DNA of 64,000 bases, from NCBI RefSeq assembly GCF_900313025.1, contig NZ_OMPQ01000005.1, forward strand, positions 1 to 64,000, written 5' to 3'. The position numbers were made by a program, and so were the translations under genes. This document shows, piece by piece, positions 38,729 through 62,017 of this stretch. How positions within the stretch are numbered: the stretch's first letter is position 1; each line of letters begins with the position of its first letter. A model generated the notes under the pieces. That model saw only the letters and a program-made list of their open reading frames with translations, ran no database searches and had not been told where the DNA came from. This DNA is from Pseudophaeobacter sp. EL27. GTDB lineage: Bacteria > Pseudomonadota > Alphaproteobacteria > Rhodobacterales > Rhodobacteraceae.

Positions 38729-38781
38729 CACCGCACCTCCCAGCTGGTTGTTGTTGCCCGACACATGTTACGAGCAAAGGA

Positions 38782-42347: not shown

Positions 42348-42454
42348 TTGGTGCTTCCTCCCCGAAAGCCGCCCCCCGGCCAAAGGCCGGGGCGCGCCCA
42401 TACGGGCCTCGATGGGCCGTTTGGGCGCTCCTTTGTTGGTTTAAATGCTTTAGA

Positions 42455-45726: not shown

Positions 45727-46166
45727 TCCAATTTCCTCTTTCCCGGCGGCCCGCCAAACAGGTGCTCGGCCCGGCCTCAGTGTTTCTTCGATCTCAGCAC
45801 AAGCCATACCGCAGCGCCAAGCCCCTGGTCGATAGGCTGCCCCAGAACCCTGCGTCACAGCCATCGCCCCCCCCTGCGGTTTGAAGCGCATCTAGCCCGA
45901 GCTTAAAATTCCATCATGCAGAACGCAGTTCCACAGAATTGGAGGCACACTAGGCAAGAGCAACGCAGTGATCAAGCAAGAATCTTGCGCAACACAGGGG
46001 AAATGCCGCGCTGCGGAAAGTGACGCTGGGGTAAAAACAGGTTGTGACAAAACCCTGCCGATGAACCGAAAAAGGACAGCAACCCAAGGCCGCTGTCCTT
46101 CTTTACCCTATGACGCCGCATTCCCCGCATCTGCCCTAGGGCAGTTTTGAACTAGGAAAGCAGACC
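45727..46166. other. 440-bp intergenic region with promoter side for the beta-oxidation operon
   Basis: No gene is supported. The left part should carry the promoter of the leftward operon, but no clear -35/-10 was seen. The right part holds a terminator (46066-46100). A longer open frame running through the left part into the multifunctional gene has no ribosome site. Confidence 0.4.
46066..46100 (-). terminator. Terminator after the Tm-1-like gene
   Basis: AAGGACAGC (46072-46080) pairs with GCTGTCCTT (46092-46100) around an 11-base loop. On the minus strand the stem is followed by a T tract (TTTTTC). Confidence 0.8.
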
Positions 46167-47405
46167 TTAAACCGTAGTCTTGATGATACCGCTGGCGGTC
46201 CAACTGTCGAATATCTCCAGCACTTTTTCACAAAAGGCAGCATCATTGATGTGGCAATCTTGCTCGGTCAACTCGGCATTTTGAGGACAGGCGCGGCGCA
46301 TCGACTCACAAAAGGCAGTCAGCCCTTCGGCATCATGCAGATCCCCGCCGGGACGATCCCATTCATTGCACCCCTGATTGGGCAAAATCACCGCCACCGG
46401 AGCCCGGGCCTGCGACAGTTTCTCGCAAATGGCCTGCGCAACGGTGCGACGTTCTTCAGGCTCCAGCACTGCTGACGACAGCAGCCGGTTATGCGCATGG
46501 GTTGGCCGCCCTTGCAGCTGTACAGGCACCCCTTGCCAGCCGACAAAATCCACCAGATCATAACAGCCCGGCGCCACCAGCTGCGGTGTCCCGGCCCGTC
46601 CCGCATTGGTCAAGCGATCCGCCCCCGCCGACAACCCGCCGAACAAGTGGTTTGATACCTCTTGCGGTGCAAAATCCATCACCACAGCAAAGGCACCCTC
46701 ACCCGCAAGACTCTCAAAAGCACGTCCCCCCATGCCGGTGGCATGAAACACCGCAACCTCAAATCCACGCGCCTCCAACGCGGGTTTCAGCGTCACCATA
46801 TAGCGCAGCACTGTCTTGCCAAACGAAGTCATGCCAATCAGTGGCCGCTCCCGGCGCGGCGCCTCAACAGCACGCGCAGCCCCCAAGACCGCCCCCGCAG
46901 CCTGACTCAGCGCAGCCTTGCAGATGGAATTCAACCCATATAGCCCACCGGACCAAAGGATCATCTGCACATCCGCAGGGATCCGTTCCGGCGGCATCAG
47001 CGGCGAAAATGCCACTGTAGAGACCACATATTTTGGCACCCCAACGGGCAGCGCCTGACAGAGATCTAGGGCCAGATCGGTACCCATGGTGCCGCCCAAA
47101 ACGATCACCCCATGGATCTGGCCTGCGCGATACAGCTCCAGCGCCTTGGCCGCAGCTCCCGCGCCCATAATCTGCATCGCAGTATTCTCATCCCCCGAGG
47201 CAATCGCCGCTTCAATCGAACTGCCACCGGCTTCAGCCACCTGATGTTTGCTGACATCCGTCGGCCGGCTGGGATCGCCCAGCACACTGACATCCATCGA
47301 CAAGACCCGACCACCCTGACCATGAATGACCTCCGCCAGATAGTGCAGCTCATCATCCTTGGTATCATAGGTCCCCGCGACCAGAATCGTTTTTACAGCC
47401 GTCAT
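46167..47405 (-). CDS. Tm-1-like ATP-binding domain protein (UPF0261)
   Basis: A 412-residue protein. KTILVAGTYDTKDDEL and VLGGTMGTDLALDLC are characteristic of the Tm-1 N-terminal ATP-binding domain, and DFAPQEVSNHLFGGLSAGADRLTNA is the C-terminal signature. In plants this family confers resistance to tomato mosaic virus; in bacteria it is often next to transporters or phosphoenolpyruvate-mutase-like genes and its role is unknown. ATG 47405 has GGGAGGG upstream; the longer frame is rejected. It follows the aldehyde dehydrogenase by 90 bp and ends this part of the operon. Confidence 0.85.
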   Translation of the reverse strand: MTAVKTILVAGTYDTKDDELHYLAEVIHGQGGRVLSMDVSVLGDPSRPTDVSKHQVAEAGGSSIEAAIASGDENTAMQIMGAGAAAKALELYRAGQIHGVIVLGGTMGTDLALDLCQALPVGVPKYVVSTVAFSPLMPPERIPADVQMILWSGGLYGLNSICKAALSQAAGAVLGAARAVEAPRRERPLIGMTSFGKTVLRYMVTLKPALEARGFEVAVFHATGMGGRAFESLAGEGAFAVVMDFAPQEVSNHLFGGLSAGADRLTNAGRAGTPQLVAPGCYDLVDFVGWQGVPVQLQGRPTHAHNRLLSSAVLEPEERRTVAQAICEKLSQARAPVAVILPNQGCNEWDRPGGDLHDAEGLTAFCESMRRACPQNAELTEQDCHINDAAFCEKVLEIFDSWTASGIIKTTV

Positions 47406-47438
47406 GTCACCCTCCCGACGCCATAGGCGCCCCTCTAT

Positions 47439-47494
47439 CATCTTTCTTCAAATATTCCCGCCGGAGGCCACTGGTTTTGCCCCGCAAAACCAGT
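47439..47494 (-). repeat. Dispersed intergenic repeat, copy 3, with adjoining hairpin
   Basis: On the minus strand the core GGCCTCCGGCGGGAATATTT then GAAGAAAGATG lies at 47439-47469. Just upstream on that strand is an 11-bp hairpin ACTGGTTTTGC/GCAAAACCAGT at 47470-47494, immediately after the aldehyde dehydrogenase stop. Confidence 0.75.
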
Positions 47495-47495
47495 T

Positions 47496-48980
47496 TCACA
47501 ACTGGATCCAGGCCGTTTTTAGGTCGACATATTTATCCAGCGCATGCAGGGATTTATCATGCCCATTGCCAGATTGCCCAACCCCACCCAAAGGCACGGT
47601 GTTATCCGCTCCGCCATAGGTGTTCACATGCACAACACCGGCACGGATCCCCGCAACCATGCGATGCGCGCGCGACAAGTCTGAGGTCCATACCCCGGCA
47701 GCCAGACCAAAATCGGTTGCATTGGCCAGGCTCAGGGCCTCGGCCTCCCCCTCAAATTTGGTCACTGACAGGACCGGCCCAAAAACCTCGCGCTGGAACA
47801 GCGCATGGTCGCGCGCCACATAGGTGACAATGGTCGGCGACATGTAGCTGCCGCCGGTGTCTTGCAGAATACGGCAGCCTCCGGTGATCACCTGTCCACC
47901 CTCGGACCGGGCCATATCCATAAAGGACAGATTGCGCCGCAACTGATCCTCAGAGTTCACCGCTCCAATCTGGCTGTCCAGATCCAAAGGATCGCCAACC
48001 CGCAAAGCCTCGGCCTCGGCCTTCAACAGCGCCACAAATTCATCATGCACCGAGGCCTCCACCAAGAGACGCGAGCCCGCCACACAGACCTGGCCGGAAT
48101 TGCGGAAAATCCCCATGGCCGAGACCTTGGCGGCCTTGGCCAGGTCCTTTGTGTCTGCAAAGACGATGTTGGGCGATTTGCCCCCCAGTTCCAAATAGCA
48201 GCGCTTGAGGTTGGAACGCGCCGAGGCCTCCAGCAATTTGCGCCCGGTGCCGCCTGATCCAGTAAAGGTCAACACATCGACCCCCATGGACATCGCCAGG
48301 GCTGCCCCGGTTTCAACGCCAGAGCCGGTCACCACATTGAAGACCCCATCGGGCAGTCCGCATTCAACGCAGATCTCTGCCAGCCGTAGCAACGTCAAAG
48401 AGGCCGTTTCCGCCGGTTTCAACACTACGGAATTGCCCATGGCCAGGGCCGGCGCCAGCTTCCAGGCGCCGATCATCAGTGGAAAGTTCCAGGGCACGAT
48501 GGCGCCAACCACTCCAACCGGCGCGCGGTGCACCAACCCCAGGACATCTGCCTGGGTTGGCGCCACCTCGCCTGCCACCTTGTCCAGCGCCTCGGCATAA
48601 TAGCGAAAGGTCCCGGCAGCCGATCCCGGCTCGGCCTTCAGCGCCATGTTGAATTCGGTGCCGTTATCGCGCACGCCCAGAACCGCCAGCTCCACTGCCT
48701 CTGCATCGATCCGGTCTGCAATACGGTGCAGCACCTTTTTACGTGCGGCGGGGGACTGACCCGCCCAGCGGCCATCCTCGAATGCCCGCCGCGCCGAGGC
48801 GACAGCGCGCTCGACATCTGTTGCAGAGGCGCCCTCCAGCGTGGTTAAAATAGCCCCTTCAATCGGCGAAGTAACTTCGAGTGGCGTCCCCGAACCTCCT
48901 TGCCACGATCCTTCAAGAAAGAGTTTTTGCGGCGGAACATCAGCTTTCCGAAGCTGGTTGATGCGGTTTTGGTCTGCCAT
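47496..48980 (-). CDS. Aldehyde dehydrogenase family protein
   Basis: A 494-residue aldehyde dehydrogenase. Features: VPWNFPLMIGAWKLAPALA, FTGSGGTGR, the general-base ELGGKSPNIV, the catalytic cysteine in GQVCVAGSRL, and a C-terminal QSGNGHDKS. It resembles betaine-, 4-guanidinobutyraldehyde- and gamma-glutamylamino-butyraldehyde-oxidising enzymes. Its ATG has AAGGAGG, the strongest ribosome site seen in the window, yet it lies inside the end of tctA: the two genes overlap by 136 bases. Confidence 0.9.
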   Translation of the reverse strand: MADQNRINQLRKADVPPQKLFLEGSWQGGSGTPLEVTSPIEGAILTTLEGASATDVERAVASARRAFEDGRWAGQSPAARKKVLHRIADRIDAEAVELAVLGVRDNGTEFNMALKAEPGSAAGTFRYYAEALDKVAGEVAPTQADVLGLVHRAPVGVVGAIVPWNFPLMIGAWKLAPALAMGNSVVLKPAETASLTLLRLAEICVECGLPDGVFNVVTGSGVETGAALAMSMGVDVLTFTGSGGTGRKLLEASARSNLKRCYLELGGKSPNIVFADTKDLAKAAKVSAMGIFRNSGQVCVAGSRLLVEASVHDEFVALLKAEAEALRVGDPLDLDSQIGAVNSEDQLRRNLSFMDMARSEGGQVITGGCRILQDTGGSYMSPTIVTYVARDHALFQREVFGPVLSVTKFEGEAEALSLANATDFGLAAGVWTSDLSRAHRMVAGIRAGVVHVNTYGGADNTVPLGGVGQSGNGHDKSLHALDKYVDLKTAWIQL

Positions 48981-50464
48981 TCGGCCTCCTTCAGCTCTTT
49001 GCGGTCGCGCCAGACGCGCAGGATATGACTCGCAAGAACCAAGATGATGATAGTGAAAAGAATGAACGATATCGGTCGGTTGATGAAGTCCAGCGGCTCC
49101 TTCACCCGGGCCATGCCCGAGCGCAGCTTGACCTCCATTATGCCGCCCAGAACCATGCCCAGAATGATCGGCACCGCCGGCAGGGACAGGCGTTTGAGGA
49201 TAAAACCAAAGAGCCCAAAGCCCGCCGCAATCAAGCAGTCAGTGGCTGAGTTGCGCAGGGAGTAGACCCCAACAAAGCTGAGCGTCAGGATACAGACCCC
49301 CAGGAAGCGATTGGGGATTTTCACCACTTGAACCAGTGCGCGGGTGGCAAAGAGCAAAAATCCCAGCACCAGCACATTGAGGATCAACAGTGCCAGATAG
49401 AGCGCCACAACAAAATCCATATCATTCTGGAACAGACCCGGCCCCGGAACCACGTTGTGCACGTAGAACACGCTCAGCATCATGGCCGTCAGCGCTTCGC
49501 CCGGAATGCCCAGCGCCAAAAGCGGCACCATCGCGGCGGCGGGCACCGCGTTATTGGCGGTCTCGGCAGCGATCAACCCCTCGGAGGAGCCTTTGCCAAA
49601 GTCCTGTGGCCGTTTTGAGGTCTTCTGTGCGTAGGTATAGGACATGAACTGGGCGGTGAACTCGCCAACGCCGGGGATCATCCCCATCAAGACACCAAAG
49701 CTGGCTGAGACGGCCGTGACCCGCGGATGGCGTGTCAGCTCTCGCAGGCCTTGGAACATGCCGCCGCGCAGCTTGGTGATACGGACCTTTTCGTCCTCAT
49801 CCATCAGCAGTGCAAAGGCCTGGCTCAGCGCAAAAAGGCCCAGCACCACCACGATCAGGTTCACCCCGCCGCCGAGGAAGTCCTGATCAAAGGTGTAGCG
49901 CTGGGTGTATTTCACCGGCTCCATGCCGATGGTGTTGAGAAAAATCCCAAGACAGGCCAGCGCGCCGGCGATCAAGGCCTGACCGCGATGGGCGACCACC
50001 ACCAGGATCAACCCCAGGAGGGCGGCGAGGAAGATCTCGCGGCTGCCAAACATCGGCGCCACCTTGGCCAGAACCGGGGCAAAGAGGATCAGACAAACGA
50101 CCGAGAAAACACCACCAAAAAAGCTGGCAGAATAGGCCAGGCTCAGGGCGCGGCGCGGCTCTCCGCGGGCAGTCATCGGATAGCCATCATAGGTGGTCAG
50201 CGCATTGACGGCTGTGCCCGGCGTGTTGATCAGGATGGCCGGGATGGCGCCGCCATACATCGAGGAGCCGTAAATCCCCAACAGCACCGTCAGGCCAACG
50301 ATGGGATCCATCGAGAAGGTTGCAGGCAGCAGAATGGCAATGGCTACCGCCGGGCCAACGCCGGGGATCGCGCCAATCAGGACACCACCGACCGAGCCTG
50401 CCAGCAGCGCCAGCGCCACGTCCCAGCGCATCAGGATGTCGATTGCAGAGAGGATAAGATCCAT
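48845..50464 (-). CDS. tctA: TTT transporter large permease (TctA)
   Basis: A 539-residue permease with ten or more spans and the signature GIYGSSMYGGAIPAILINTPGTA and TPGDAAV-like regions. TctA forms the channel for tricarboxylate or other anionic substrate. It is about 35 residues longer than most TctA proteins because the reading frame runs 136 bases into the next gene; the extra tail is Lys/Arg-rich (RRKNSFLKDRGKEVRGRHSK). A lost stop codon is likely. Located 15 bp after tctB. Confidence 0.9.
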   Translation of the reverse strand: MDLILSAIDILMRWDVALALLAGSVGGVLIGAIPGVGPAVAIAILLPATFSMDPIVGLTVLLGIYGSSMYGGAIPAILINTPGTAVNALTTYDGYPMTARGEPRRALSLAYSASFFGGVFSVVCLILFAPVLAKVAPMFGSREIFLAALLGLILVVVAHRGQALIAGALACLGIFLNTIGMEPVKYTQRYTFDQDFLGGGVNLIVVVLGLFALSQAFALLMDEDEKVRITKLRGGMFQGLRELTRHPRVTAVSASFGVLMGMIPGVGEFTAQFMSYTYAQKTSKRPQDFGKGSSEGLIAAETANNAVPAAAMVPLLALGIPGEALTAMMLSVFYVHNVVPGPGLFQNDMDFVVALYLALLILNVLVLGFLLFATRALVQVVKIPNRFLGVCILTLSFVGVYSLRNSATDCLIAAGFGLFGFILKRLSLPAVPIILGMVLGGIMEVKLRSGMARVKEPLDFINRPISFILFTIIILVLASHILRVWRDRKELKEAEWQTKTASTSFGKLMFRRKNSFLKDRGKEVRGRHSKLLRRLKGLF

Positions 50465-50479
50465 CAGAAACCCCGAGAC

Positions 50480-51010
50480 CTAGAAGTAGAGAATGAAGAA
50501 GTTGCGCAAGGTCCCCGGCAGGTACTCATAGAGCAATGCACCGGGAATTCTGACGGCCAGGATACCTTTGAACAGCACCACGACCATCAGCGCAAAGCTG
50601 AGGCTGATGCCCATCATGAACCGACCGCGATAGCCCATACGGCGCGCCAGCAGCGGTACAAAGACCAGGGTCACAGGCAAATAGCCAATCAGAGGCACCA
50701 AAAACACATAGCCCATGAACCAAAGCGCATATTCAGCGCTGCGCCCCCATTGCCGGGTTTCCCAAAGGTCGTACCGCGAGGCCCTTCGCCAGGGCAGCTG
50801 ATAGAAGTGCAATCCCCCAAGCAGCACCATGCCGCCGAGGCTGACGGCAGGCCAGAACCGGGGCTGGGCAAAGAGCTTGGCCTTTTTGACCCAGGTGGTT
50901 TGCTCGCCTATCAGCACCAGAAGCAGCACCGAGAGAGTCAGAAATACGAGGGCAAAAACCAGCTGTCCGCGCCGGGGGCCAACAAAGTGGCGTTCTCGTT
51001 CAGTGGTCAT
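50480..51010 (-). CDS. tctB: TTT transporter small permease (TctB)
   Basis: A 176-residue protein with four hydrophobic segments (near 20-42, 55-70, 95-120 and 130-160). It is the accessory membrane subunit of the TctCBA system. The first residues RERHFVGPRRGQLVFA are the cytoplasmic start. It lies 69 bp after tctC and 15 bp before tctA. Confidence 0.87.
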   Translation of the reverse strand: MTTERERHFVGPRRGQLVFALVFLTLSVLLLVLIGEQTTWVKKAKLFAQPRFWPAVSLGGMVLLGGLHFYQLPWRRASRYDLWETRQWGRSAEYALWFMGYVFLVPLIGYLPVTLVFVPLLARRMGYRGRFMMGISLSFALMVVVLFKGILAVRIPGALLYEYLPGTLRNFFILYF

Positions 51011-51079: not shown

Positions 51080-52024
51080 TTACTCCAGGATCGAGCTGAT
51101 CTTTGCCATGGTGGCAATATCGGTTGCCACGCGGGCAGCACTGTCAGGTGCACTCTGCCAGTAGACCAGCGCGCCGGTTTCTGCAGCCACGGCCTGGGCC
51201 CGTTCGCTCATCATGGTTTTCTGTGCCACCGCGATGATCTTTTCGCGCACATCCTGTGGCGTGTCTTTGGCGACAAACAAACCGTTCCACAGGGCGATGT
51301 TCAGACCTGCGTCCAGCTCACCAATGGCAGGTGCGTCGGGGACCAGCGGGATACGCTCATCGGTGATCGAAACCAGAACCTTGACCTGATCGAGGCAGGG
51401 CAGGATCAGCTGCAGCGTGGTGTTGATCACATCCGCATCGCCCGAGGCCAGGGTGTTGCAATCCAGCGCATCAAAGGCCGCATCCGACCCCCACTCAAAA
51501 CCAGCATTCTTGGCAAAGGCCTTGGTCACCTGGGTGGGCGTCAACACATCGCCAAAATGGCCCAGGGCCACGTCGTTTTCCTTTGCATGGGCGGCCAGCT
51601 CTTCCATGCTGGAGTAAGGCGCATCCGCCGAAGTGGCGATAACAAAGGGATAGGTGAGGAAGATCCCCAGCGGGTCAAACTTTTCCGGGGTCAGCGGCGG
51701 GATGTCGATCTGGTGGCCCATGACCGGCACGCCGATCACAAAGGAGCCCACGGTGTAGCCATCTGCTGGCGCATTGGCCACCTCGATCGCGCCCGGGAAG
51801 GGGCCGCCACCGCCGCCGGGCTTGTTCACTACGGCGGCAGCAACGCCATATTCTGCCTGAAAATCATCCGCGATCATCCGCGTCAGGACATCCTCCAGAT
51901 CACCGGGAGGCCAGGGTACGATAAAGCTCACAGGCTTTTCCGGATATTCCGCCTGCGCTGCCACAGCGCTGAGGCCAAGTGCGGCCGCGGCAGCGGCGCC
52001 TTTCACGAGATGGGTCAGTTTCAT
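51080..52024 (-). CDS. tctC: TTT transporter binding protein (TctC)
   Basis: A 314-residue periplasmic binding protein. Residues 1-25 form a Sec signal ending VAAQAEYPEKPV. Bug/TctC features: FIVPWPPGDLED, VVNKPGGGG, and the P-D-A-P-A-I-G-E-L motif near 230. Its ligand is not known; neighbouring genes suggest an amine-derived acid or amino acid analogue. It is divergent from the IclR regulator. Confidence 0.92.
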   Translation of the reverse strand: MKLTHLVKGAAAAAALGLSAVAAQAEYPEKPVSFIVPWPPGDLEDVLTRMIADDFQAEYGVAAAVVNKPGGGGGPFPGAIEVANAPADGYTVGSFVIGVPVMGHQIDIPPLTPEKFDPLGIFLTYPFVIATSADAPYSSMEELAAHAKENDVALGHFGDVLTPTQVTKAFAKNAGFEWGSDAAFDALDCNTLASGDADVINTTLQLILPCLDQVKVLVSITDERIPLVPDAPAIGELDAGLNIALWNGLFVAKDTPQDVREKIIAVAQKTMMSERAQAVAAETGALVYWQSAPDSAARVATDIATMAKISSILE

Positions 52025-52092: not shown

Positions 52093-52198
52093 TAGATTGA
52101 CAGGCCACCCGCTTATCTGTCAACAAAATATCAACGCAGGTGTTTGTTTTTCCAAACTCACGCCTCTGGTTCGGCCAAAACGGAGTTTGAAACGGCAC

Positions 52199-52978
52199 AT
52201 GGGAACTGTCAGCAAAGCCCTTAAACTGTTAAGTTTTTTCTCTCCTGAGCGCACCGAGATTGGGCTCAGTGACCTCACGCGCCTGTCAAGCATGAACAAG
52301 GCAACGGTCTATCGCCTCATGGGCGAGCTGCAAGAATCAGGCTTTGTTGAACAGGGGGAAAACGACCGCGCCTACCGGTTGGGGCCGCAGGTTTTGCACC
52401 TGGCTGCCCTGCGCGAAGCCTCTACCCCGATTCTGTCGGTGTCACGCCGCGTTCTGCGCGAACTCAGCGACGAAACCGGGGAGACCACCCATGTCTCGCT
52501 TGGCCATGAGACCCAGGTACAAACCCTCAGCCACGCCTATTCCCCCAGTCATGCCACCAAGGTCACCATGGAGGACGCCCAGACCGTGACCTATCACGCC
52601 ACCAGTTCCGGTCTTGCCATTCTGGCCTATGCCGATCCGGATTTTGTTGAACAGATCCTGTCACAGCCCCTGAAGGCCCATACCAGCATGACGCTGGTGA
52701 ATCCTGAAGAGATCCGCGCCAAGCTAACGAGTATCCGAGAGACTGGCCTCTCTGACACCCTGGGCAGCTTTGAACTGGAAGTGCATTCCCATGCGGTGCC
52801 GATCTTTGGCGCCGACCATAAGGCCATCGGGGCCCTGGCCGTTGCGGCGCCCGCCTCACGCATGTCCCCGCCGCAGCAAGAGACCATCCGCGCAGCCCTG
52901 CGCCGTGCCGGTGCCGCCCTGACCCATCGCATCGGCGGCAGCCCACCCGCTGACTATCCTCAAAGCGCTGCCCCGTGA
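52199..52978 (+). CDS. IclR family transcriptional regulator
   Basis: A 259-residue regulator. Residues 1-70 are the winged helix (GTVSKALKLLSFFSPER, SSMNKATVYRLMGELQESG), and residues 80-250 the IclR effector domain with THVSLGHE and a C-terminal ALAVAAPASRM motif. The ATG at 52199 follows a GGAG spaced 14 bases away, so the start is not strong. A very long open frame continues upstream but is antisense to tctA-tctC and rejected. It likely controls tctCBA and the aminotransferase. Confidence 0.88.
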   Translation: MGTVSKALKLLSFFSPERTEIGLSDLTRLSSMNKATVYRLMGELQESGFVEQGENDRAYRLGPQVLHLAALREASTPILSVSRRVLRELSDETGETTHVSLGHETQVQTLSHAYSPSHATKVTMEDAQTVTYHATSSGLAILAYADPDFVEQILSQPLKAHTSMTLVNPEEIRAKLTSIRETGLSDTLGSFELEVHSHAVPIFGADHKAIGALAVAAPASRMSPPQQETIRAALRRAGAALTHRIGGSPPADYPQSAAP

Positions 52979-53039: not shown

Positions 53040-54395
53040 ATGAAAGATTCCAATTTCCTCAAAGAGCACAACGCCAAATCCCTTTGGCACCCCATGGCGC
53101 ATCCCGCCGACAGCCAAGCCAACCCGCCGGCCATCATCACCGGCGCGCAGGGCGTGCGGATCAGCGATATTGACGGCCATGAGGTGATTGATGCCGTTGG
53201 CGGGCTGTGGAACGTCAACCTCGGGTTTTCCTGCCAGCCGGTCAAGGATGCCATTGCCGCCCAATTGGATGTGCTGCCCTATTACTCCACCTTTCGCGGC
53301 ACCAGCAACGATCAGGTCATCCAGCTGGCCGAGGTGCTGCGCGATTTCTTTGCCCCAGACGGGCTGACCCGGGCCTTCTTTACCTCTGGTGGGTCGGATT
53401 CGGTGGAAACCGCGCTGCGCCTGGCGCGACAGTATCACAAGATCCGCGGCGAGGCTGGCCGGACCAAGTTCCTCAGCCTGAAAAAAGGCTATCACGGCAC
53501 TCACATGGGCGGCGCTTCGGTGAATGGCAATGCCAATTTCCGCACCCAGTATGAGCCGCTCCTGCCCGGTTGCCACCACATTCCGGCCCCCTATACCTAT
53601 CGCAATCCCTTCAATGAGAGCGATCCGGAAAAACTGGCGCAGCTCTGCCTGCAGGCCTTGGAAGATGAGATCGCCTTTCAGGGCGCGGGCACGATTGCCG
53701 CCTTCATCATGGAGCCGATCCTTGGCGCTGGAGGTGTCATCCCGCCACATGAGAGCTTCATGCCGGGGGTGCGCGAGATCTGTACCAAAAATGGCATCTT
53801 GCTGATCGCAGATGAGGTGATCACCGCCTTTGGCCGCACCGGGTCTTGGTCCGGCTCGCGGCACTGGGGGGTGCAGCCAGATTTCATGTGTACCGCCAAG
53901 GCGATCACCAATGGCTATTTCCCCTTTGGCGCCGTGATGATCGCCGATGCGGTGGCAGAGGTGTTCGAGCAGGATGAAACAGGCCGTGCAGCCATTGGTC
54001 ACGGCTATACCTATTCCGGCCACCCGGTTGGTGCAGCCGCCGCGCTTGCCTGTCTGCAGGAAACCCTACGTCTGGATGTGCCGACAAACGCCGCAGCCCG
54101 AGGACAAGAACTGCATCAGGGGCTGCTGGCTCTGCAAGAGAAACACGCGCTGATTGGTGATGTCCGGGGCGGGCATGGGTTGATGTGCGCGATGGAGTTG
54201 GTCTCTGATCGCACCAGCAAGACCTCGATCGACAAACAAACCACGGCCACTGTGCAAGAGGTCACCTACCAGAATGGCGCCATGGTGCGCATCTCAGGGC
54301 CCAATATCATCCTCTCGCCCCCGCTGGTTCTCACCTCGGAAGATGTCCAGAGCATCCTCTCCGCGTTGGAAGCCGGCTTTGCGGCCGTGCGCTAA
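53040..54395 (+). CDS. Class III aminotransferase
   Basis: A 451-residue PLP enzyme. Features: LWHPMAHP and YYSTFRGTSN (substrate pocket), FFTSGGSDSVETALRLARQYH, ADEVITAFGRTG, and the PLP lysine in CTAKAITNGYFPFG. Such enzymes transfer amino groups from an omega-amino acid or polyamine to pyruvate or 2-oxoglutarate. It may act on the amine that TctCBA imports or on the product of the ligase at 54593. It starts 61 bp after the IclR gene, CAGGAG upstream. Confidence 0.9.
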   Translation: MKDSNFLKEHNAKSLWHPMAHPADSQANPPAIITGAQGVRISDIDGHEVIDAVGGLWNVNLGFSCQPVKDAIAAQLDVLPYYSTFRGTSNDQVIQLAEVLRDFFAPDGLTRAFFTSGGSDSVETALRLARQYHKIRGEAGRTKFLSLKKGYHGTHMGGASVNGNANFRTQYEPLLPGCHHIPAPYTYRNPFNESDPEKLAQLCLQALEDEIAFQGAGTIAAFIMEPILGAGGVIPPHESFMPGVREICTKNGILLIADEVITAFGRTGSWSGSRHWGVQPDFMCTAKAITNGYFPFGAVMIADAVAEVFEQDETGRAAIGHGYTYSGHPVGAAAALACLQETLRLDVPTNAAARGQELHQGLLALQEKHALIGDVRGGHGLMCAMELVSDRTSKTSIDKQTTATVQEVTYQNGAMVRISGPNIILSPPLVLTSEDVQSILSALEAGFAAVR

Positions 54396-54592: not shown

Positions 54593-55882
54593 TCAGACGA
54601 AATGAACGTAGAAATCCCGCATCCCATCCCCCTCAAGGTCGCGAGTTTTTCGTACCTCTTTGCGCTTCATAAAGACATGGTTGGCGACCAAGTCCACGCC
54701 CACGGCCTCTGACAAAACGGTATCGCGTTCCAAATCGGTGACCGCGCCTTTAAGGTCAATCGCCGTCCCCTCCCGCGCATCTGTACGGTCAAACCCGTCG
54801 CCTGTCTCCATGGCAGGCAACTCATAGCCCTTCTCCACACCCAGCAAGGACGCCTGCAGAACTGCCGCCACAGCGGTATAGGGATTAGCGGAAGCATCCG
54901 CCATCCGGTGCTCCAACCGGGCTTTCGCCCCGCCCTCCGAGCTGATCCGCGTGGTCACATTGCGATGATCCCCGCCCCAGTTCTGCCAATAGCCCGACAA
55001 AGATCCCGGCTGCAGGCGCATATAGCTGTTCGCGGTGGGCGCAATCAGCCCGGCGAGGCCCTTGTGATGCTGCAACACACCAGCCAGACAGCCGCGCGCC
55101 AGATCATTCATATGTTCAGGCCCCCCGCGCGGCCCCGAAGAGAGCGCATTGCCCCCGGCCTCATCCACAAAAGAAAAGTTGATATGCATGCCAGATCCAC
55201 CGGCCTCGGCCACGGGTTTGGGCATGAAGGTCAGAACAATCCCATATTCCAAGGCAATTTCACGCGCCATCAGGCGGAACAATACAATGTCATCCACTGC
55301 CTGCACCGCATCATCAAAGGTCAGCGTGTATTCAAACTGCGGCGAGTCGAACTCCGCCGTGATCATATCCAGCGAGAACCCCATCTCATCTGCCATGGCC
55401 CAGATCCGGTCGTTAAACCGCAAAGGATCAGCAAAAGGCCCGGTGCCATAGACCACGCCTCCCGGCGCATCATAGGGCATCAACCGTCCCCGATCATCCG
55501 CCTGCAACGCATAGGCCTCCAGCTCAATCCCCACCTTTGGACTCAGCCCCTTTACTTGCCAGCCTGCAACTGCGCGCCTCAGCGCCCCGCGCGGGCACAG
55601 AGACAGTGGTTCGCCCTCAACATCATAAAGATCACCCAAAACCACCTTGGTCGAAGCATGCCAGCTGTCGCGAATATCGTCATGCTGCCAACGCAGCTCC
55701 ATATCCGGCATGCCCTGTTTGACCAGGGATCCCGGCGCATCCAGCAAATCGCGATCATAATGTGTGCCAAAAACGGACCGGCAAAACCGCGTATCGCCAT
55801 CGCCAATTTTGGAGTTCGGCAGGTATTTCCCCCGCATGATGCTGAGGTGGTCGCAAAACATCGCACGCAAGCGGGTCTTCAT
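54593..55882 (-). CDS. Glutamine synthetase family protein (second gamma-glutamyl ligase)
   Basis: A 429-residue member of the glutamine synthetase superfamily. Features: GIELEAY (118-124), TAEFDSPQFEY (175-185), GGSGMHINFS (228-237), and the C-terminal EHRMADASANPYTA. The N-terminal domain is nearly absent compared with standard GlnA and it begins close to the catalytic barrel. It is distinct from the first copy in this window (6766-8127). With the P450 and amidotransferase nearby it resembles TdnQ/AtdA1- or IpuC-type ligases that join glutamate to an amine. ATG 55882 follows AAGGATT; the longer frame is rejected. Confidence 0.85.
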   Translation of the reverse strand: MKTRLRAMFCDHLSIMRGKYLPNSKIGDGDTRFCRSVFGTHYDRDLLDAPGSLVKQGMPDMELRWQHDDIRDSWHASTKVVLGDLYDVEGEPLSLCPRGALRRAVAGWQVKGLSPKVGIELEAYALQADDRGRLMPYDAPGGVVYGTGPFADPLRFNDRIWAMADEMGFSLDMITAEFDSPQFEYTLTFDDAVQAVDDIVLFRLMAREIALEYGIVLTFMPKPVAEAGGSGMHINFSFVDEAGGNALSSGPRGGPEHMNDLARGCLAGVLQHHKGLAGLIAPTANSYMRLQPGSLSGYWQNWGGDHRNVTTRISSEGGAKARLEHRMADASANPYTAVAAVLQASLLGVEKGYELPAMETGDGFDRTDAREGTAIDLKGAVTDLERDTVLSEAVGVDLVANHVFMKRKEVRKTRDLEGDGMRDFYVHFV

Positions 55883-56020
55883 GGTGGGAATCCTTCCGGG
55901 TTGGTAACGTCGATTTGTCACGGCTGCCTTTGATCTGGCACAGCTTCTGATGATTAGTAGTTAACATATTTAGCGATTCTGAGGGACTGATTTCTAGCCT
56001 CCTCCTGAACAACCGGGGAC

Positions 56021-57280
56021 TCAGCGGCGGGTGACACGCACTGGCAGCTCCTTGATGCCGCCCACAAAGTTCGAACGCAGGAACTTTTGCGGGCCTGCTG
56101 CCTCAATATGGCTGATCCGTTTTGCCAGTTCCTGAAACAGTACCGTGACCTCCAGCCGCGCCAGCCACATGCCCAGGCAGACGTGGGGGCCGAACTGGCC
56201 AAAGGACAGATGGCGATTGGGGCTGCGCATCAGGTTCACCCGGAAAGGCTCATCAAAATAGCTGTCATCGCGATTGGCTGAGATGAACCAGTAAAGAACC
56301 TTGTCGCCCTCCCGGATCAGCTTGTCATGCATCTCAAAATCCCGCGTCGCGGTGCGGCGGAAATAGAGCGCAGGCGTCGCCCAGCGGATAATCTCATCCG
56401 CCGCCGTCTCCCAGACCGCCCCGCCCGCCTGCATCTGTTGCAAAAGCTCGGGTTGATGACACAGGGCCTGAATGCCCGCAGCAATGGAATAGCGCGTGGT
56501 GTCATTGCCCGCCGCCACCAAAAGGCAAAAGAAATTGCGAAACTCGGTCTCGGTAATCGTGGATCCATCCTTGGCGGGCTCCAAAATCATATTGAGCACC
56601 CCGGAGGTATCTCCAGCCTTTGCCTTATCCGCCATCAACTCCTTGGCATAAACATAGAGCTCCGCCCCGGCCGGCGAGTTAAACGGCATCATCCGGTACT
56701 CATCGGTTTGCAGCTTATCCATGACATGGGCGGTGAAATCCGGATCGGTATTGGCGATCAGCGCATCGCCTTTCTCCACCAGCCAGGGCAGATCCACCTC
56801 CGGCAACCCGACCACACGGCCCAGCATTCGCATCGGCAATTGCCGGGCGATCTCTTTGGTGGCATCAAAACTGCCCTTCTCCAGTATTGGGTCAAGGATC
56901 TCGGCGCAGATATCGCGGATTTCCTGCTCATACTGCGCCATCGAGGTCTTGGAGAAGGCCTTCATCAGCTTCATCCGCACCTTGGAATGCTCCGGTGGAT
57001 CAGTCTCCTGAAAGGTGCGGCGCGCCAGATATTCTTCATAGCTCTGGTCTTCCATGCGGATCCCACGCGCCGAAGAGAACACCTCGGTGTTCTTGTTCAT
57101 CTGGGTGATGTCATCGTAGCGGGTTACCGACCAAAAATTTTCACCCCCTGCGTATTCGGTCCAATGCAGCGGATCCTCACGGCGCAGACGTGCAAAGGTG
57201 TTATGGGGCGCGCCCATAGCAAAGGTATCATGGCTGCTCAGATCGGCATGGCCGTCGTCCTGTGGTGTCCAGATGGTCAT
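56021..57280 (-). CDS. Cytochrome P450
   Basis: A 419-residue bacterial P450 (soluble type). Features: I-helix AGNDTT at 257-262, E296xxR299, and the haem segment FGQFGPHVCLG with C368. The extra residue between F and G is normal for the steroid- and terpene-type families (FGxxGxHxC). It inserts one oxygen atom from O2. No ferredoxin or reductase gene is close. It lies 139 bp upstream of the ligase on the same strand, so both may be co-transcribed, and the amidotransferase is divergent. Confidence 0.93.
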   Translation of the reverse strand: MTIWTPQDDGHADLSSHDTFAMGAPHNTFARLRREDPLHWTEYAGGENFWSVTRYDDITQMNKNTEVFSSARGIRMEDQSYEEYLARRTFQETDPPEHSKVRMKLMKAFSKTSMAQYEQEIRDICAEILDPILEKGSFDATKEIARQLPMRMLGRVVGLPEVDLPWLVEKGDALIANTDPDFTAHVMDKLQTDEYRMMPFNSPAGAELYVYAKELMADKAKAGDTSGVLNMILEPAKDGSTITETEFRNFFCLLVAAGNDTTRYSIAAGIQALCHQPELLQQMQAGGAVWETAADEIIRWATPALYFRRTATRDFEMHDKLIREGDKVLYWFISANRDDSYFDEPFRVNLMRSPNRHLSFGQFGPHVCLGMWLARLEVTVLFQELAKRISHIEAAGPQKFLRSNFVGGIKELPVRVTRR

Positions 57281-57329
57281 ATTGGGCTTCCCGAATGCTT
57301 GCTTTGTGTATATTATGTGGCGCTATAAA

Positions 57330-57341
57330 TATGTAAACATA
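57330..57341. promoter_or_regulatory. GntR/FCD-type operator candidate in the P450-amidotransferase divergent region
   Basis: TATGTAAACATA is a perfect palindrome with the GT-N2-AC core typical of FCD-class GntR regulators. It lies in the 79-bp space between the two start codons. The FCD regulator at 58141-58791 is close by. Confidence 0.45.
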
Positions 57342-57359
57342 AAACTCACGAGCCAATCC

Positions 57360-58064
57360 ATGCACTTAGCAATTCTGGTCACTAATACAGACAAGAGCCC
57401 CTTTGCCGCTCAGCACCCACAGGATGGAGAAAAATTCACTCGACTCATCCAAATGGCGCGACCAGACTGGAAGACAACGGCCTTCCAAATCCACGAAGGC
57501 CAGTTCCCACCAGACATAACAACTTTTGATGGCGCGATGATCACCGGCAGCCCGGCCTCAACCCGCAGCGGTCTCCCCTGGATTGCGCCGCTGCTCACCC
57601 TCATTCAGGACATGGACAAAAGGCATTTCCCGCTGTTTGGCGCCTGTTTTGGGCATCAGGCAATCGCCCTGGCTCTGGACGGGACCGTGGGCGAAAACCC
57701 TAATGGCTGGGTCCACGGGCTGGTGCGAAATGAATTGCAAACCTCCCCCCCCTGGGCAAAACCACTACCTCAGCACTTCAACCTTTACGGCTCACACAGC
57801 GAATATGTCTCGCAGCTTCCCGCAGGCGCCACGCCCTGCTCCAACAGTACCGGGTTGAACGCCGGCTTTACGGTCGACAGCCATATCTGGACCAGCCAGC
57901 ACCATCCCGAGATGAGCCCTGATTTCATCACCGCCCTCACCAAAGAAATGCGCAGCGCCCTTGGCCCCGACCGATATAAACAGGCCACTTCCAGCCTGGC
58001 CGCCCCGGCAGATCAAGCGGCATTTGCGGAAAGCCTCGCCCGCTTCTTTGAACAGGCGCAATAG
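57360..58064 (+). CDS. Class I glutamine amidotransferase-like protein
   Basis: A 234-residue protein. The nucleophile is C96 in GACFGHQ, and H182/E184 in HHPE complete the triad. It resembles the stand-alone amidotransferase fold of GMP synthase and the TdnT/AtdA2-like hydrolases of aniline pathways. A role in hydrolysing a gamma-glutamyl amide is suggested by the divergent P450 and ligase genes. ATG 57360 is used; the frame extends upstream into the P450 gene without support. Confidence 0.85.
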   Translation: MHLAILVTNTDKSPFAAQHPQDGEKFTRLIQMARPDWKTTAFQIHEGQFPPDITTFDGAMITGSPASTRSGLPWIAPLLTLIQDMDKRHFPLFGACFGHQAIALALDGTVGENPNGWVHGLVRNELQTSPPWAKPLPQHFNLYGSHSEYVSQLPAGATPCSNSTGLNAGFTVDSHIWTSQHHPEMSPDFITALTKEMRSALGPDRYKQATSSLAAPADQAAFAESLARFFEQAQ

Positions 58065-58140: not shown

Positions 58141-58791
58141 TCAGCCCAGTGCCGCCAGAAGATCCATCGCGGTGACCTGATCAAACTGCACATGTTGGGT
58201 CATGCGCCGCGCAGCCCCGATCTGGTCGTGGGAATAAATCAGCTCGGCAATCTCGCGATGCTCTTTGGCCGATTGCGCGATTGAACCCGGATAGTGATAA
58301 CGGGCCCGGTAATAGGCCATCAATTTGCGCGCATTGGTCTTGATCATCTCCACCAGAAACGGGTTGCCTGCGCCCATGGCCACACCTGCGTGAAACCCTA
58401 GGTTCAACTGGTAATAGCCATTGGGATCACCATCCCCCTTTTCAGCTGCATGGGCCTCACAGGCCCGCACAATCTGCTCCAGCTCCGCCGCCTGCGCCGG
58501 GCTCATCCGACGCGCGGCCAGACCCGCCGCCTGCCCTTCCAGATTGGCATGCACCTCCAGAATAGCCAGAAACTCTTCCAGACTGGGCTTGAACAGTACC
58601 GCCCCCTTGCGCGGCAGCCGCCGGATCAGGCCCGCAGTTTCCAGCTGAATAAAGACCTCCCGGATGGGTGTCCGTGACACCCCATGACGCGCGGCCAGTC
58701 CAGCCTCATCCAGAACGTCACCTGGGTTCAATTGCCCGGCATCAATATCCACAAGGATCGCATTCAATAGCCCTTCGCTCTGCCCTGCCAA
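58141..58791 (-). CDS. GntR family regulator, FCD class
   Basis: A 216-residue regulator. Residues 1-70 form the winged helix (LDEAGLAARHGVSRTPIREVFIQL), and residues 80-210 the FCD domain with E-x-R/N and H residues (near N128, H132) that usually bind a metal. It probably binds a carboxylate. It lies 93 bp after the nitronate monooxygenase gene and may end that operon or be transcribed alone. Confidence 0.88.
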   Translation of the reverse strand: MAGQSEGLLNAILVDIDAGQLNPGDVLDEAGLAARHGVSRTPIREVFIQLETAGLIRRLPRKGAVLFKPSLEEFLAILEVHANLEGQAAGLAARRMSPAQAAELEQIVRACEAHAAEKGDGDPNGYYQLNLGFHAGVAMGAGNPFLVEMIKTNARKLMAYYRARYHYPGSIAQSAKEHREIAELIYSHDQIGAARRMTQHVQFDQVTAMDLLAALG

Positions 58792-58884: not shown

Positions 58885-60021
58885 CTACTCTTCCAGCAGG
58901 GCCCCCAGCCGCTCAAAAGCCGTCAGGAAATCCTCCTTGAAGCCCTGCACCACGCCGCCTGCCGACATTGCCTGGTTCATCAGGCCAACCCCCTGGCCAA
59001 CCCAATAGGTGGCCAGGTCCTGCGCGCCCTCATGGCCTTTTTGCGACATCTGATCAATCCGGTGCAGCGCCGGCTCTGACACCAGGGTCTGCAGCGGCAT
59101 TGGCAGTGGTTTGGGTGCGCCCTTGACCTCCCAGGCCTCGGTCCAGGCGCTGACCAACTGGCGCGAAGGCTTGCCCGTGCGCGAGCGTGAGCGGACGGTA
59201 TCGCGGCTGCTGGCCGCCAGCATCTTTTCCTTCACCACCGGGTTGGTCTCAGCTTCGGCGGTGGTCAGCCAGACAGAGCCACACCAGGCGCCTGCCGCCC
59301 CCATGGCCATGGCCGCCGCCATCTGAGCGCCGGTCGCAATGCCCCCCGCCGCCAGAACCGGCACCCCGGATCCGGCAATGGCCTGCACCACCTCCGGCAC
59401 CAGCACCATGGTTGAAATCTCGCCGGTATGGCCACCGGCCTCACCACCAGCGGCAATGATCACATCCACACCCGCTGCAACCTGAGCGCGGGCATGTTCC
59501 GCCGTGCCCACCAGCGCCCCCACAGCCACGTCCTGCGCCTTGCCGCGTTCCAGCATCTCCTGCGGCGGCAGGCCCAGCGCATTGGCGATCAGAGCAATTG
59601 GATGGGAGAAGGCCACATCCAGACTGCGCCGCGCGCCTTCGGCGCTGATGTTTTCGCGAAACACCAGCTGCTCGGCCCGCACCGGATCGAGGTTTCCGGG
59701 TTCAACCCCGTATTTCTGCATCACGTCATCGGCAAAATCCTTATGCCCCTCGGGCACCATGGCCAGGATCGCCGCATCCGGAATATCCTCCCCTTTGGCC
59801 TCAAACTTATTGGGCACGATAAGGTCGACGCCGTAGGGCTTGCCATTCACATGGGCATCAATCCAGGTCAGCTCTTCTTCCAGCTCCTCTGGCGACATCA
59901 TGGCGGCGCCAAAAATCCCCATTCCGCCAGCATTGGTGACCGCTGCCACCACATCGCGGCAATGAGAAAAGGCAAAAAGCGGAAACTCGATGCCAAGCCG
60001 TTTACAAAGTTCCGAGTTCAT
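58885..60021 (-). CDS. Nitronate monooxygenase family protein
   Basis: A 378-residue FMN TIM barrel. Features: VVAAVTNAGGMGIFGAA and AGGEAGGHTGEISTMVLVPEVV, which hold the FMN. It belongs to the 2-nitropropane dioxygenase superfamily; members oxidise nitronates or reduce enoyl-CoA-type double bonds. The place of this one after an acyl-CoA carboxylase suggests a role in an acyl-CoA route. It overlaps the carboxylase alpha gene by four bases. Confidence 0.87.
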   Translation of the reverse strand: MNSELCKRLGIEFPLFAFSHCRDVVAAVTNAGGMGIFGAAMMSPEELEEELTWIDAHVNGKPYGVDLIVPNKFEAKGEDIPDAAILAMVPEGHKDFADDVMQKYGVEPGNLDPVRAEQLVFRENISAEGARRSLDVAFSHPIALIANALGLPPQEMLERGKAQDVAVGALVGTAEHARAQVAAGVDVIIAAGGEAGGHTGEISTMVLVPEVVQAIAGSGVPVLAAGGIATGAQMAAAMAMGAAGAWCGSVWLTTAEAETNPVVKEKMLAASSRDTVRSRSRTGKPSRQLVSAWTEAWEVKGAPKPLPMPLQTLVSEPALHRIDQMSQKGHEGAQDLATYWVGQGVGLMNQAMSAGGVVQGFKEDFLTAFERLGALLEE

Positions 60022-62000
60022 TCCGTGTTCTCCTGTGTCGCCATTGCCTGCTCAATCTGCACCAAGAGATCGCCCGCCTTCACTTGGCAAGGTGCCGTGA
60101 CAGCCACCTCGCTCACGGTTCCTGCCACCTCGGCCAGAATCTCATGCTGCATTTTCATCGCCTCCAACACCGCCAGACGGGTGCCCACCTCAACCGGGTC
60201 TCCTACGCGCACGCAGAGCTCCAGCAGGTTGCCGTGCATCGGGGCGGGTGTTTCACCACCACCAGCGGCCGCGCCAGCGCCAGCCCCAGACCGCTGTCGG
60301 GTCACCTTCAACATCCGCGTACCGGTAGCGAGAAACAGATCCTCCCCAACCATCAGGTGGTTGCGCAGATCCATACGCAGCCCATCCAACCGCAGACAAT
60401 CCCCCTGCTGTTGCAGATGATGTTCCGCTTCGCCGACCTGTACCCGGATGCCATCGCGGCTCTCGTGCAGCAACACGGTTGCTCTCTCGCCTGCGGCCTC
60501 CAGCACCAACCGCGCCTGCAAAGCCCCTTGACTGGACCAGCCCAGCAGCTCTGCCGGGGTCTCTGCCCGCTTGGCCAATGCCGCCTGATCTACGCGGTAG
60601 ATCAATGCCGCCGCCAGCGCCAAATCAGCGCTGGAGATTTCAGGTGGAACCAGAGGGTCAAAGTGATCGCCAATAAAGCTGGTCGTCGCCGCGCCTTTGG
60701 CAAACTCGGCATGGCCCAGGACATCCATCAGGAAGTCGCGATTGCAGGCCGGCCCAAAGATTACGGTGTCACCCAGCGCCGCGATCAGGCGCTCCAAGGC
60801 CTCTGCACGGGTCGCCCCATGGGCGATGACCTTGGCCAGCATCGGATCATAAAAGGCTGAGACCTCCTGCCCCGAAACAATGCCCGCATCCACCCGGATG
60901 CCCGCACCGGTGGCGGGCTGCCATTGGTGGATCTGCCCGGATTGGGGCAAGAACCCCTGGCCGGGGTCCTCGGCATAGAGCCGCACCTCGATGGCATGAC
61001 CCTTCAGGGTTACATCTTCCTGTGCCACGCCCAGCGCCTGACCGCGCGCTGCGCGAATCTGCAGCGCCACCAAATCAAGCCCGGTGACCATTTCAGTGAC
61101 GGGATGCTCCACCTGCAGGCGGGTGTTCATTTCCAGAAAGTAGAAAGCACCGTTTTTGTCCAACAGGAACTCCACCGTTCCGGCGCCCAGATAGCTGATG
61201 GCGCGGGCGGCTTCCACGGCGGCAGCCCCCATCTCAGCGCGCAGCTCTGGCGTCATCACCGGACAGGGGGCTTCCTCCACCACCTTTTGATGGCGACGCT
61301 GCACCGAACAGTCGCGCTCACCCAGATGGATGGTGTGACCTGAGGCATCGGCAAAGACCTGGATTTCTACGTGACGCGGGCGCATCACCGCCTTTTCCAG
61401 GATCATCTCTTCCGAGCCAAAGGCCGAGAGCGCCTCGCTTTTCGCCAGCTCCAGCGCAGTGACAAAATCCTCCGCCTCTGTGACCAATCGCATGCCACGG
61501 CCACCGCCGCCCGCTGCGGCCTTGATCATCACCGGATAGCCTATCTTTGCAGCCTCGGCCTGCAACACCACAGGGGATTGATCCGCCCCTTCATAGCCGG
61601 GGACGCAGGGCACCCCTGCTTTGATCATCCGGCGTTTCGCGGCTGCCTTGTTCCCCATCAGGGCAATGGCCTCGGCGCTGGGGCCAATGAAGGTAAGCCC
61701 TGCCTCGGCGCAGGCCGCGGCAAATTTGGCATTCTCCGACAGGAAACCATAGCCGGGATGCACCGCCTGCGCCCCTGTTTCCTTGGCCGCTGCCAAGACC
61801 TTGGCGGCATCGAGATAACTATCCCCCACTGGGCCTGCGCCAATGCAGACGGCCTGGTCGGCAAAGGCGACATGCGGGCTTTGCGCGTCGGCCTCGGTAT
61901 AGACCGCGATGCATTTGATCCCCATCGCACGCGCCGTGCGCATGATGCGCAGGGCGATCTCGCCGCGATTGGCCACCAGAATTGAATTGAATTCTGTCAT
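60018..62000 (-). CDS. Acyl-CoA carboxylase alpha subunit (biotin carboxylase plus BCCP)
   Basis: A 660-residue protein. Residues 1-445 are biotin carboxylase (ILVANRGEIALRIMRTA, ATP-grasp with AAAGGGGRGMRLV, and LEMNTRLQVEHPVTE), then a linker and a biotinyl domain with the lysine in LEAMKMQHEI near 630. It carboxylates its own biotin for the partner at 62018. Sequence resembles methylcrotonyl- and geranyl-CoA carboxylases. ATG 62000 follows GGGAGAGG; the longer frame is rejected. Confidence 0.93.
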   Translation of the reverse strand: MTEFNSILVANRGEIALRIMRTARAMGIKCIAVYTEADAQSPHVAFADQAVCIGAGPVGDSYLDAAKVLAAAKETGAQAVHPGYGFLSENAKFAAACAEAGLTFIGPSAEAIALMGNKAAAKRRMIKAGVPCVPGYEGADQSPVVLQAEAAKIGYPVMIKAAAGGGGRGMRLVTEAEDFVTALELAKSEALSAFGSEEMILEKAVMRPRHVEIQVFADASGHTIHLGERDCSVQRRHQKVVEEAPCPVMTPELRAEMGAAAVEAARAISYLGAGTVEFLLDKNGAFYFLEMNTRLQVEHPVTEMVTGLDLVALQIRAARGQALGVAQEDVTLKGHAIEVRLYAEDPGQGFLPQSGQIHQWQPATGAGIRVDAGIVSGQEVSAFYDPMLAKVIAHGATRAEALERLIAALGDTVIFGPACNRDFLMDVLGHAEFAKGAATTSFIGDHFDPLVPPEISSADLALAAALIYRVDQAALAKRAETPAELLGWSSQGALQARLVLEAAGERATVLLHESRDGIRVQVGEAEHHLQQQGDCLRLDGLRMDLRNHLMVGEDLFLATGTRMLKVTRQRSGAGAGAAAGGGETPAPMHGNLLELCVRVGDPVEVGTRLAVLEAMKMQHEILAEVAGTVSEVAVTAPCQVKAGDLLVQIEQAMATQENTE

Positions 62001-62017
62001 TGTCTGATCCTCTCCCA

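Follow-up and report, generated by a model that had tools for sequence, protein, structure and literature searches.

A 64,000-nucleotide stretch of the genome of Pseudophaeobacter sp. EL27 (contig NZ_OMPQ01000005.1, positions 1 to 64,000; hereafter the window) carries three adjacent genes encoding a putative gamma-glutamyl-amine ligase related to glutamine synthetase, a cytochrome P450 and a class I amidotransferase (GATase)-like hydrolase (Table 1). Comparison with related genomes demonstrates that the three genes form a fixed module, beyond chance proximity, and that members of the module's wider family are linked to genes for homoprotocatechuate ring cleavage and for an aromatic-amino-acid-type decarboxylase. 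On the basis of gene content, the module may constitute the peripheral part of an aromatic-amine pathway in which an amine, most likely tyramine, would receive a glutamyl tag, be hydroxylated by the P450 and lose the tag before it enters homoprotocatechuate degradation. We assign this reading a probability of about 0.5.

The open reading frames, together with Pfam matches that exceed the gathering cut-off for each of the three proteins, confirm the adjacency reported in an initial annotation of the window, which was made from the sequence alone. The ligase and P450 genes are co-directional and lie approximately 100 bp apart; the hydrolase gene diverges from the P450 gene, with approximately 80 bp between the two starts. 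The open frame of the hydrolase spans 57198-58064 on the forward strand, and translation probably begins at the ATG at 57360. Placing the start there gives the nucleophile the number C96, as the initial annotation had it.

Conservation was assessed in 80 named loci, the best 80 of at least 533 confirmed relatives and thus a set that leans to close kin; 64 of them exceed 21 kb, and the remaining loci have a flank cut. In every one of the 80, the ligase and hydrolase genes stand beside the P450 gene, the ligase on the same strand and the hydrolase on the opposite one. In a wider set, the hydrolase shares a locus with the P450 in 103 of 117 loci. Among the 14 loci that lack a hydrolase match, L065, L066, L101 and L106 are short contigs, and at a looser threshold weak matches appear in L065 and L109. 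The initial annotation had been ready to give up its reading if the three genes rarely occurred together; the genomes hold the opposite. With the window's own genome included in each count, a close relative of the P450 is found in all 12 genomes of the genus (truncated at a contig end in one, split in two pieces in another), in 34 of 149 family genomes at E 1e-80, in 11 of 385 class genomes at E 1e-75 and in 5 of 398 genomes of a phylum sample at E 1e-70. A [2Fe-2S] ferredoxin gene, whose product may serve the P450, lies beside the ligase gene in 53 of the 80 named loci. The window contains no ferredoxin match, and the best match in its own genome is 40% identical and located on another contig. 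On a plasmid of Sagittula stellata, a ligase, a hydrolase and a P450 40% identical to that of the window are encoded beside a TRAP transporter, ring-hydroxylating dioxygenase subunits and a salicylyl-CoA hydroxylase gene; this cluster is perhaps a sister module for another amine.

The catalytic residues of all three proteins are conserved. Ligase residues aligned with the presumed metal-, ATP- and glutamate-binding sites of glutamine synthetase are kept in all relatives scored (114-115 of 115 loci). In an alignment to solved enzymes, the flap-Glu column is occupied by leucine, methionine or phenylalanine in 114 of 114 ligases scored; in true glutamine synthetase, this column presumably holds the Glu that deprotonates ammonium. 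Moreover, the window's ligase reaches only 163 bits against the curated equivalog for GlnA (TIGR00653, cut-off 429), 185 bits against that for type III glutamate-ammonia ligase (TIGR03105, cut-off 470) and 175 bits against that for PuuA (NF045547, cut-off 650). Because these scores are so far below the cut-offs, the protein is judged to be none of the three enzymes. Among solved structures, it is related to a chain of 8wwu titled 'glutamine synthetase' (E 1.4e-25), which we take to be NpaA1. The hydrolase triad is equally constant (C96 in 104 of 104 relatives scored, H182 and E184 in 105 of 105 each), and the solved structure closest to the enzyme in sequence is gamma-glutamyl peptidase 1. A PADLOC scan of the hydrolase and the ligase gave no match. 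In the P450, the heme ligand Cys368, the ExxR pair E296/R299 and T261 are kept in 118 of 118 loci, and the I-helix acid at position 260 is D in 112 and E in 6 of them; the closest solved relatives are of the CYP125, CYP126 and CYP124 types. An acidic stretch (E77-D78 in the window's P450), which presumably lies in a substrate-recognising region, looks common to ligase-linked P450s; a single unlinked P450 was compared, and nothing is claimed from it. Conservation, intact catalytic residues and analogy with isopropylamine degradation (see below) together lend good support to the functional logic of glutamylation, oxidation and hydrolysis put forward in the initial annotation.

The downstream fate of the product is suggested by linkage. 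Ring-cleavage genes, here any of those for HpaD, HpaE, HpaH, a LigB-type dioxygenase or an MppR-like protein, lie near the P450 gene in 22 of 117 loci. This distribution takes at least 11 changes on a quick tree of the P450s, from which L145 was excluded (stop within its P450 stretch), so that a single inherited accident is unlikely; the tree has several long branches, with a tool warning on the joins between them, and gains and losses are indistinguishable on it. Among the 80 named loci, the decarboxylase lies near the P450 in 18, HpaI in 17 and HpaD in 7. In locus L064, the genes for an aminotransferase, HpaE, HpaD, an HpaG-like protein, HpaH, the P450, the ligase, ferredoxin, TctCBA and a UPF0261 protein lie on one strand. 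Its HpaD (406 bits, cut-off 321) and HpaE (777 bits, cut-off 638) both exceed the NCBIfam equivalog cut-offs; near misses are the HpaH of the same locus (341 against 351.5) and the HpaR of L100 (117 against 121), and the HpaI of L049 scores 343 bits, under its cut-off of 369. A 21-kb locus of Oricola nitratireducens combines matches to UPF0261, aldehyde dehydrogenase, TctABC, IclR, aminotransferase, ferredoxin, ligase, P450, hydrolase and FCD with matches to HpaR-like, HpaE, two HpaD types, decarboxylase, HpaG-like, HpaH and HpaI proteins. A second form of cluster (L096-L099, L101, L109, L111 and L113) carries LigB-type dioxygenases and HpaG-like and MppR-like proteins; one representative of each ring-cleavage protein was scored and fell well under the equivalog cut-offs, and their substrates are less sure. 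One cluster of this form, on a plasmid of Streptomyces canus, encodes a ligase, a P450, a ferredoxin and a reductase together with an MppR-like protein and ring-cleavage enzymes; the annotation of its 17 kb includes neither a hydrolase nor an aminotransferase.

In the window's genome, HpaE, HpaD_Fe, an HpaG-like FAH protein, HpaH and HpaI are encoded on a separate contig, and HpaD is encoded next to the decarboxylase on yet another; HpaD, HpaE, HpaD_Fe, HpaH and HpaI all score above their equivalog cut-offs. This genome holds two unrelated types of 3,4-dihydroxyphenylacetate 2,3-dioxygenase (TIGR02295 and TIGR02298), on different contigs and both over the cut-off.

The same association is seen in a phylogenetic profile of the 149 family genomes, one per genus, which are kin by descent, so that p-values are not strict. 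HpaD, counted only above the family cut-off (50 genomes; weaker matches in G050 and G154 dropped), is present in 31 of 34 genomes with the P450 versus 19 of 115 without it (Fisher p 1.1e-15). HpaH, counted at E 1e-60 (64 matches, 58 of them over the cut-off), is present in 33 of 34 versus 31 of 115, and all 34 P450-carrying genomes have at least one of the two. As a control, PaaA was found in 28 of 34 genomes with the P450 versus 46 of 115 without. Within HpaD-carrying genomes, this association is gone (25 of 31 versus 15 of 19), and phenylacetyl-CoA epoxidase was rejected as the main partner on that ground; the link between the P450 and HpaD persists both where PaaA is present (25 of 28 versus 15 of 46) and where it is absent (6 of 6 versus 4 of 69). 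The paaA gene of the phenylacetyl-CoA pathway lies approximately 3 kb past the window's end on the same contig (67097-67960), and in Ruegeria sp. TM1040 paaABCD directly adjoins the module's regulator. HpaD occurs without an HpaB_N match in 25 of the 34 P450-carrying genomes. Within the genus, HpaD is found in 12 of 12 genomes and an HpaB_N match only in the window's genome, where the protein falls under both HpaB equivalog cut-offs.

As for the amine, an aromatic-amino-acid-type pyridoxal-dependent decarboxylase gene sits between the P450 and ring-cleavage genes in L096-L098. Across the family, at a threshold that lets in paralogs down to 49% identity, the decarboxylase is found in 30 of 34 genomes with the P450 versus 41 of 115 without it, and it lies at most 4 kb from HpaD in 20 of the 43 genomes that carry both. 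Decarboxylase, aminotransferase and aldehyde dehydrogenase point to the conversion of an arylethylamine into an arylacetate, and tyramine as the amine would explain the need for an oxygenase. Homarine was considered as a substrate and dropped, a single literature search having yielded nothing on which to base it.

In the proposed pathway, an aromatic-amino-acid decarboxylase encoded elsewhere in the genome would convert tyrosine to tyramine. The ligase would couple a phenethylamine-type amine, tyramine being the likeliest, to L-glutamate through its amino group, and the P450, with a [2Fe-2S] ferredoxin, would hydroxylate the conjugate, in the tyramine case at ring C3 to give gamma-glutamyl-dopamine. 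The hydrolase, acting via C96, would release dopamine and glutamate. Dopamine would then be converted to 3,4-dihydroxyphenylacetate by the class III aminotransferase and the aldehyde dehydrogenase, and the ring would be cleaved and degraded by the Hpa enzymes (HpaD, HpaE, HpaG, HpaH and HpaI). The initial annotation had assigned neighbouring genes to later steps; the aminotransferase and the aldehyde dehydrogenase fit such a role, and TctCBA, likewise present, may do so. In its fullest form, the proposal is a widespread marine alphaproteobacterial route for tyrosine via tyramine, in which the glutamyl tag would shield the amine and provide a handle, the P450 would replace HpaBC and the GATase-fold hydrolase would free dopamine. 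This form is put forward tentatively, at slightly less than even odds.

Several observations weigh against the tyramine pathway. HpaB_N matches occur in 6 of 34 genomes with the P450 versus 12 of 115 without it (p 0.25), so HpaB is not rarer where the P450 is present, and 14 of the 50 HpaD-carrying genomes lack both. Consequently, sources of the catechol other than the P450 and HpaB exist, and the absence of HpaB is weak evidence for the P450 as the missing hydroxylase, the search not having extended to 4-hydroxyphenylacetate hydroxylases of the acyl-CoA dehydrogenase fold. Genes for HpaD, HpaE, HpaH, HpaI or the decarboxylase occur within 10 kb in no more than 21 of the 80 named loci, and in the window's own P450 clade (41 rows) none has ring-cleavage genes within that distance. 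The ring-cleavage clusters L064, L096-L099, L111, L113 and L114 contain no hydrolase match, and L096, L097, L099, L111 and L113 are also without an aminotransferase match; in such clusters, the order of steps may differ from that in the window. Within HpaD-carrying genomes, the decarboxylase is equally frequent whether the P450 is present (27 of 31) or absent (16 of 19) and thus belongs to the Hpa pathway at large, not to the module alone. Moreover, the L097 decarboxylase scores 730 bits against solved DOPA decarboxylase versus 374 against tyrosine decarboxylase, and that of the window's genome 390 versus 347. This likeness, the main result against tyramine, would leave dopamine open as the amine, and if the amine were already dopamine, ring hydroxylation would be superfluous. 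Finally, TctC proteins usually bind carboxylates.

Some of these observations would be accommodated if the P450 were not a ring hydroxylase. Oxidative N-dealkylation next to the amide nitrogen would yield glutamine and an arylacetaldehyde; alternatively, the enzyme might attack another position on a catechol conjugate such as gamma-glutamyl-dopamine. The five clusters named above that lack both hydrolase and aminotransferase matches combine ligase, P450, aldehyde dehydrogenase and ring-cleavage genes, and the decarboxylases nearest DOPA decarboxylase suggest dopamine. With dealkylation, however, the window's lineage would need neither the hydrolase (103 of 117 loci) nor the aminotransferase (51 of 80 named loci), and a P450 that does not hydroxylate the ring is considered unlikely. 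It is quite improbable that the ring is opened with the glutamyl tag still on, which would give gamma-glutamyl-4-aminobutanal, to be finished by a PuuC-like dehydrogenase and the hydrolase. The Puu pathway of putrescine (PuuA, PuuC, PuuD) likewise couples glutamylation with aldehyde oxidation and gamma-glutamyl hydrolysis, and the window's aldehyde dehydrogenase does score best against PuuC; L109, L111 and L113 encode HpaD_Fe-like, HpaG-like and MppR-like proteins but give no match to HpaH or HpaI, the representatives scoring well under the cut-offs. Yet the PuuC match is just 521 bits against 850, and the HpaD and HpaE proteins of L064 and of the window's genome pass the equivalogs for free 3,4-dihydroxyphenylacetate. 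Unlike the Puu system, the module includes a P450, its ligase is far from PuuA, and no PuuB-type oxidase was found among the 17 proteins scanned at 43.6-63.6 kb of the window, the segment to which the further searches below also refer.

The two amines named in the initial annotation, isopropylamine and aniline, are probably wrong, in that gene linkage and the phylogenetic profile point to a phenethylamine-type amine that enters the homoprotocatechuate pathway. Isopropylamine degradation (Ipu) in Pseudomonas sp. KIE171 and Arthrobacter (Paenarthrobacter) aurescens TC1 employs the ligase IpuC and a multicomponent P450 that acts on the gamma-glutamyl amide, and amidotransferase-type hydrolysis was postulated for strain TC1 (PMC6776027). 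The same three enzyme classes meet in the module, a likeness at the level of enzyme class. The logic of ligase, P450 and hydrolase is thus not new, and a P450 standing in the oxygenase's place, as the initial annotation suggested, is no new twist, the published isopropylamine route already having one (PMC6776027). By that route, a gamma-glutamyl-alkylamide would be hydroxylated on its side chain and hydrolysed to an amino alcohol, and a Mesorhizobium plasmid carries a P450, a 2Fe-2S protein, a permease, a ligase, a gamma-Glu-GABA-hydrolase-family gene and an alcohol dehydrogenase. That P450, however, is only 34% identical to the window's, and no alcohol dehydrogenase for an amino alcohol occurs among the proteins scanned, a distant locus being possible. 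Whereas the Ipu substrate is aliphatic and alcohol dehydrogenases follow later, the module has strong links to homoprotocatechuate cleavage genes, an aromatic-amino-acid decarboxylase and an aminotransferase. An alkylamine is therefore regarded as improbable.

For an aniline-type route with the P450 in place of a Rieske dioxygenase, the odds are very long. In aniline-type systems, a ligase resembling glutamine synthetase and a GAT-like enzyme operate together with a Rieske oxygenase (PMC11335346), and the aniline and 1-naphthylamine systems (AtdA1, TdnQ, NpaA1) share with the module a ligase, a GAT-like hydrolase and an oxygenase. They differ from it in having a Rieske dioxygenase instead of a P450, an amine borne directly on the ring and catechol as the product. 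No Rieske dioxygenase alpha or beta subunit was found among the 17 proteins, a distant locus being possible, and the aniline pathway was rejected on this account. In addition, a carboxymethyl side chain is implied by the linked ring-cleavage genes, which belong to the homoprotocatechuate type, and the products expected of such a decarboxylase are arylethylamines, not anilines. Overall, the interpretation given in the initial annotation is partly supported.

With the 4-hydroxyphenylacetate/homoprotocatechuate pathway (HpaBC, HpaDEFGHI), the window's genome shares the central ring-cleavage families; the entry proposed for the module differs, in that 4-hydroxyphenylacetate and HpaBC would give way to a P450 and a glutamylated amine. 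The listings of an open-access library, subscription papers lying outside the search, contained no account of the module or of gamma-glutamyl-tyramine in bacterial catabolism, and the association of the ligase-P450-hydrolase logic with genes for the decarboxylase and for homoprotocatechuate cleavage, seen in roseobacters and their relatives, seems to be new.

The genes surrounding the module are listed in Table 1. The module is also flanked by an acyl-CoA carboxylase and beta-oxidation set: an acyl-CoA ligase, an enoyl-CoA hydratase, two acyl-CoA dehydrogenases and a FadB-like protein on one side (37235-45891), and a nitronate-monooxygenase-like protein, a biotin carboxylase and a carboxyltransferase on the other (58885-63634).

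Table 1. Genes of the module and its neighbourhood (window positions; locus counts refer to the 80 named loci)
Product	Position	Strand	Family match and remarks	Named loci
Glutamine-synthetase-like gamma-glutamyl-amine ligase (putative)	54593..55921	-	442 aa; PF00120/Gln-synt_C, 243 bits	
Cytochrome P450	56021..57280	-	419 aa; PF00067/p450, 66.5 bits	
Class I amidotransferase-like hydrolase	57360..58064	+	234 aa from ATG; PF00117/GATase, 49.9 bits; C96/H182/E184	
FCD/GntR-type regulator	58141..58791	-	PF07729 + PF00392	69/80, near P450
Class III aminotransferase	53040..54395	+	PF00202; PRK07481 subfamily, 744 bits (cut-off 575)	51/80
IclR-type regulator	52175..52978	+	PF09339 + PF01614; start uncertain, within longer open frame	50/80
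TctC solute-binding protein	51080..52024	-	PF03401	48/80
TctB small permease	50480..51010	-	PF07331	
TctA large permease	48845..50464	-	PF01970	45/80
Aldehyde dehydrogenase	47496..48980	-	PF00171; PuuC nearest, 521 bits (below equivalog cut-off 850)	44/80
UPF0261/Tm-1-like protein, frequent neighbour, role unknown	46167..47441	-	PF06792 + PF23189	33/80

If the tyramine pathway is correct, the module would represent an aromatic branch of the ligase-P450-hydrolase logic known from isopropylamine, and a conserved, unexplained cluster of roseobacters would gain a testable function. It would also suggest how genomes that possess the homoprotocatechuate pathway and lack HpaB could obtain its substrate. 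Glutamylation-assisted P450 chemistry would thereby be carried from a small alkylamine to the biogenic aromatic amines of the marine environment.

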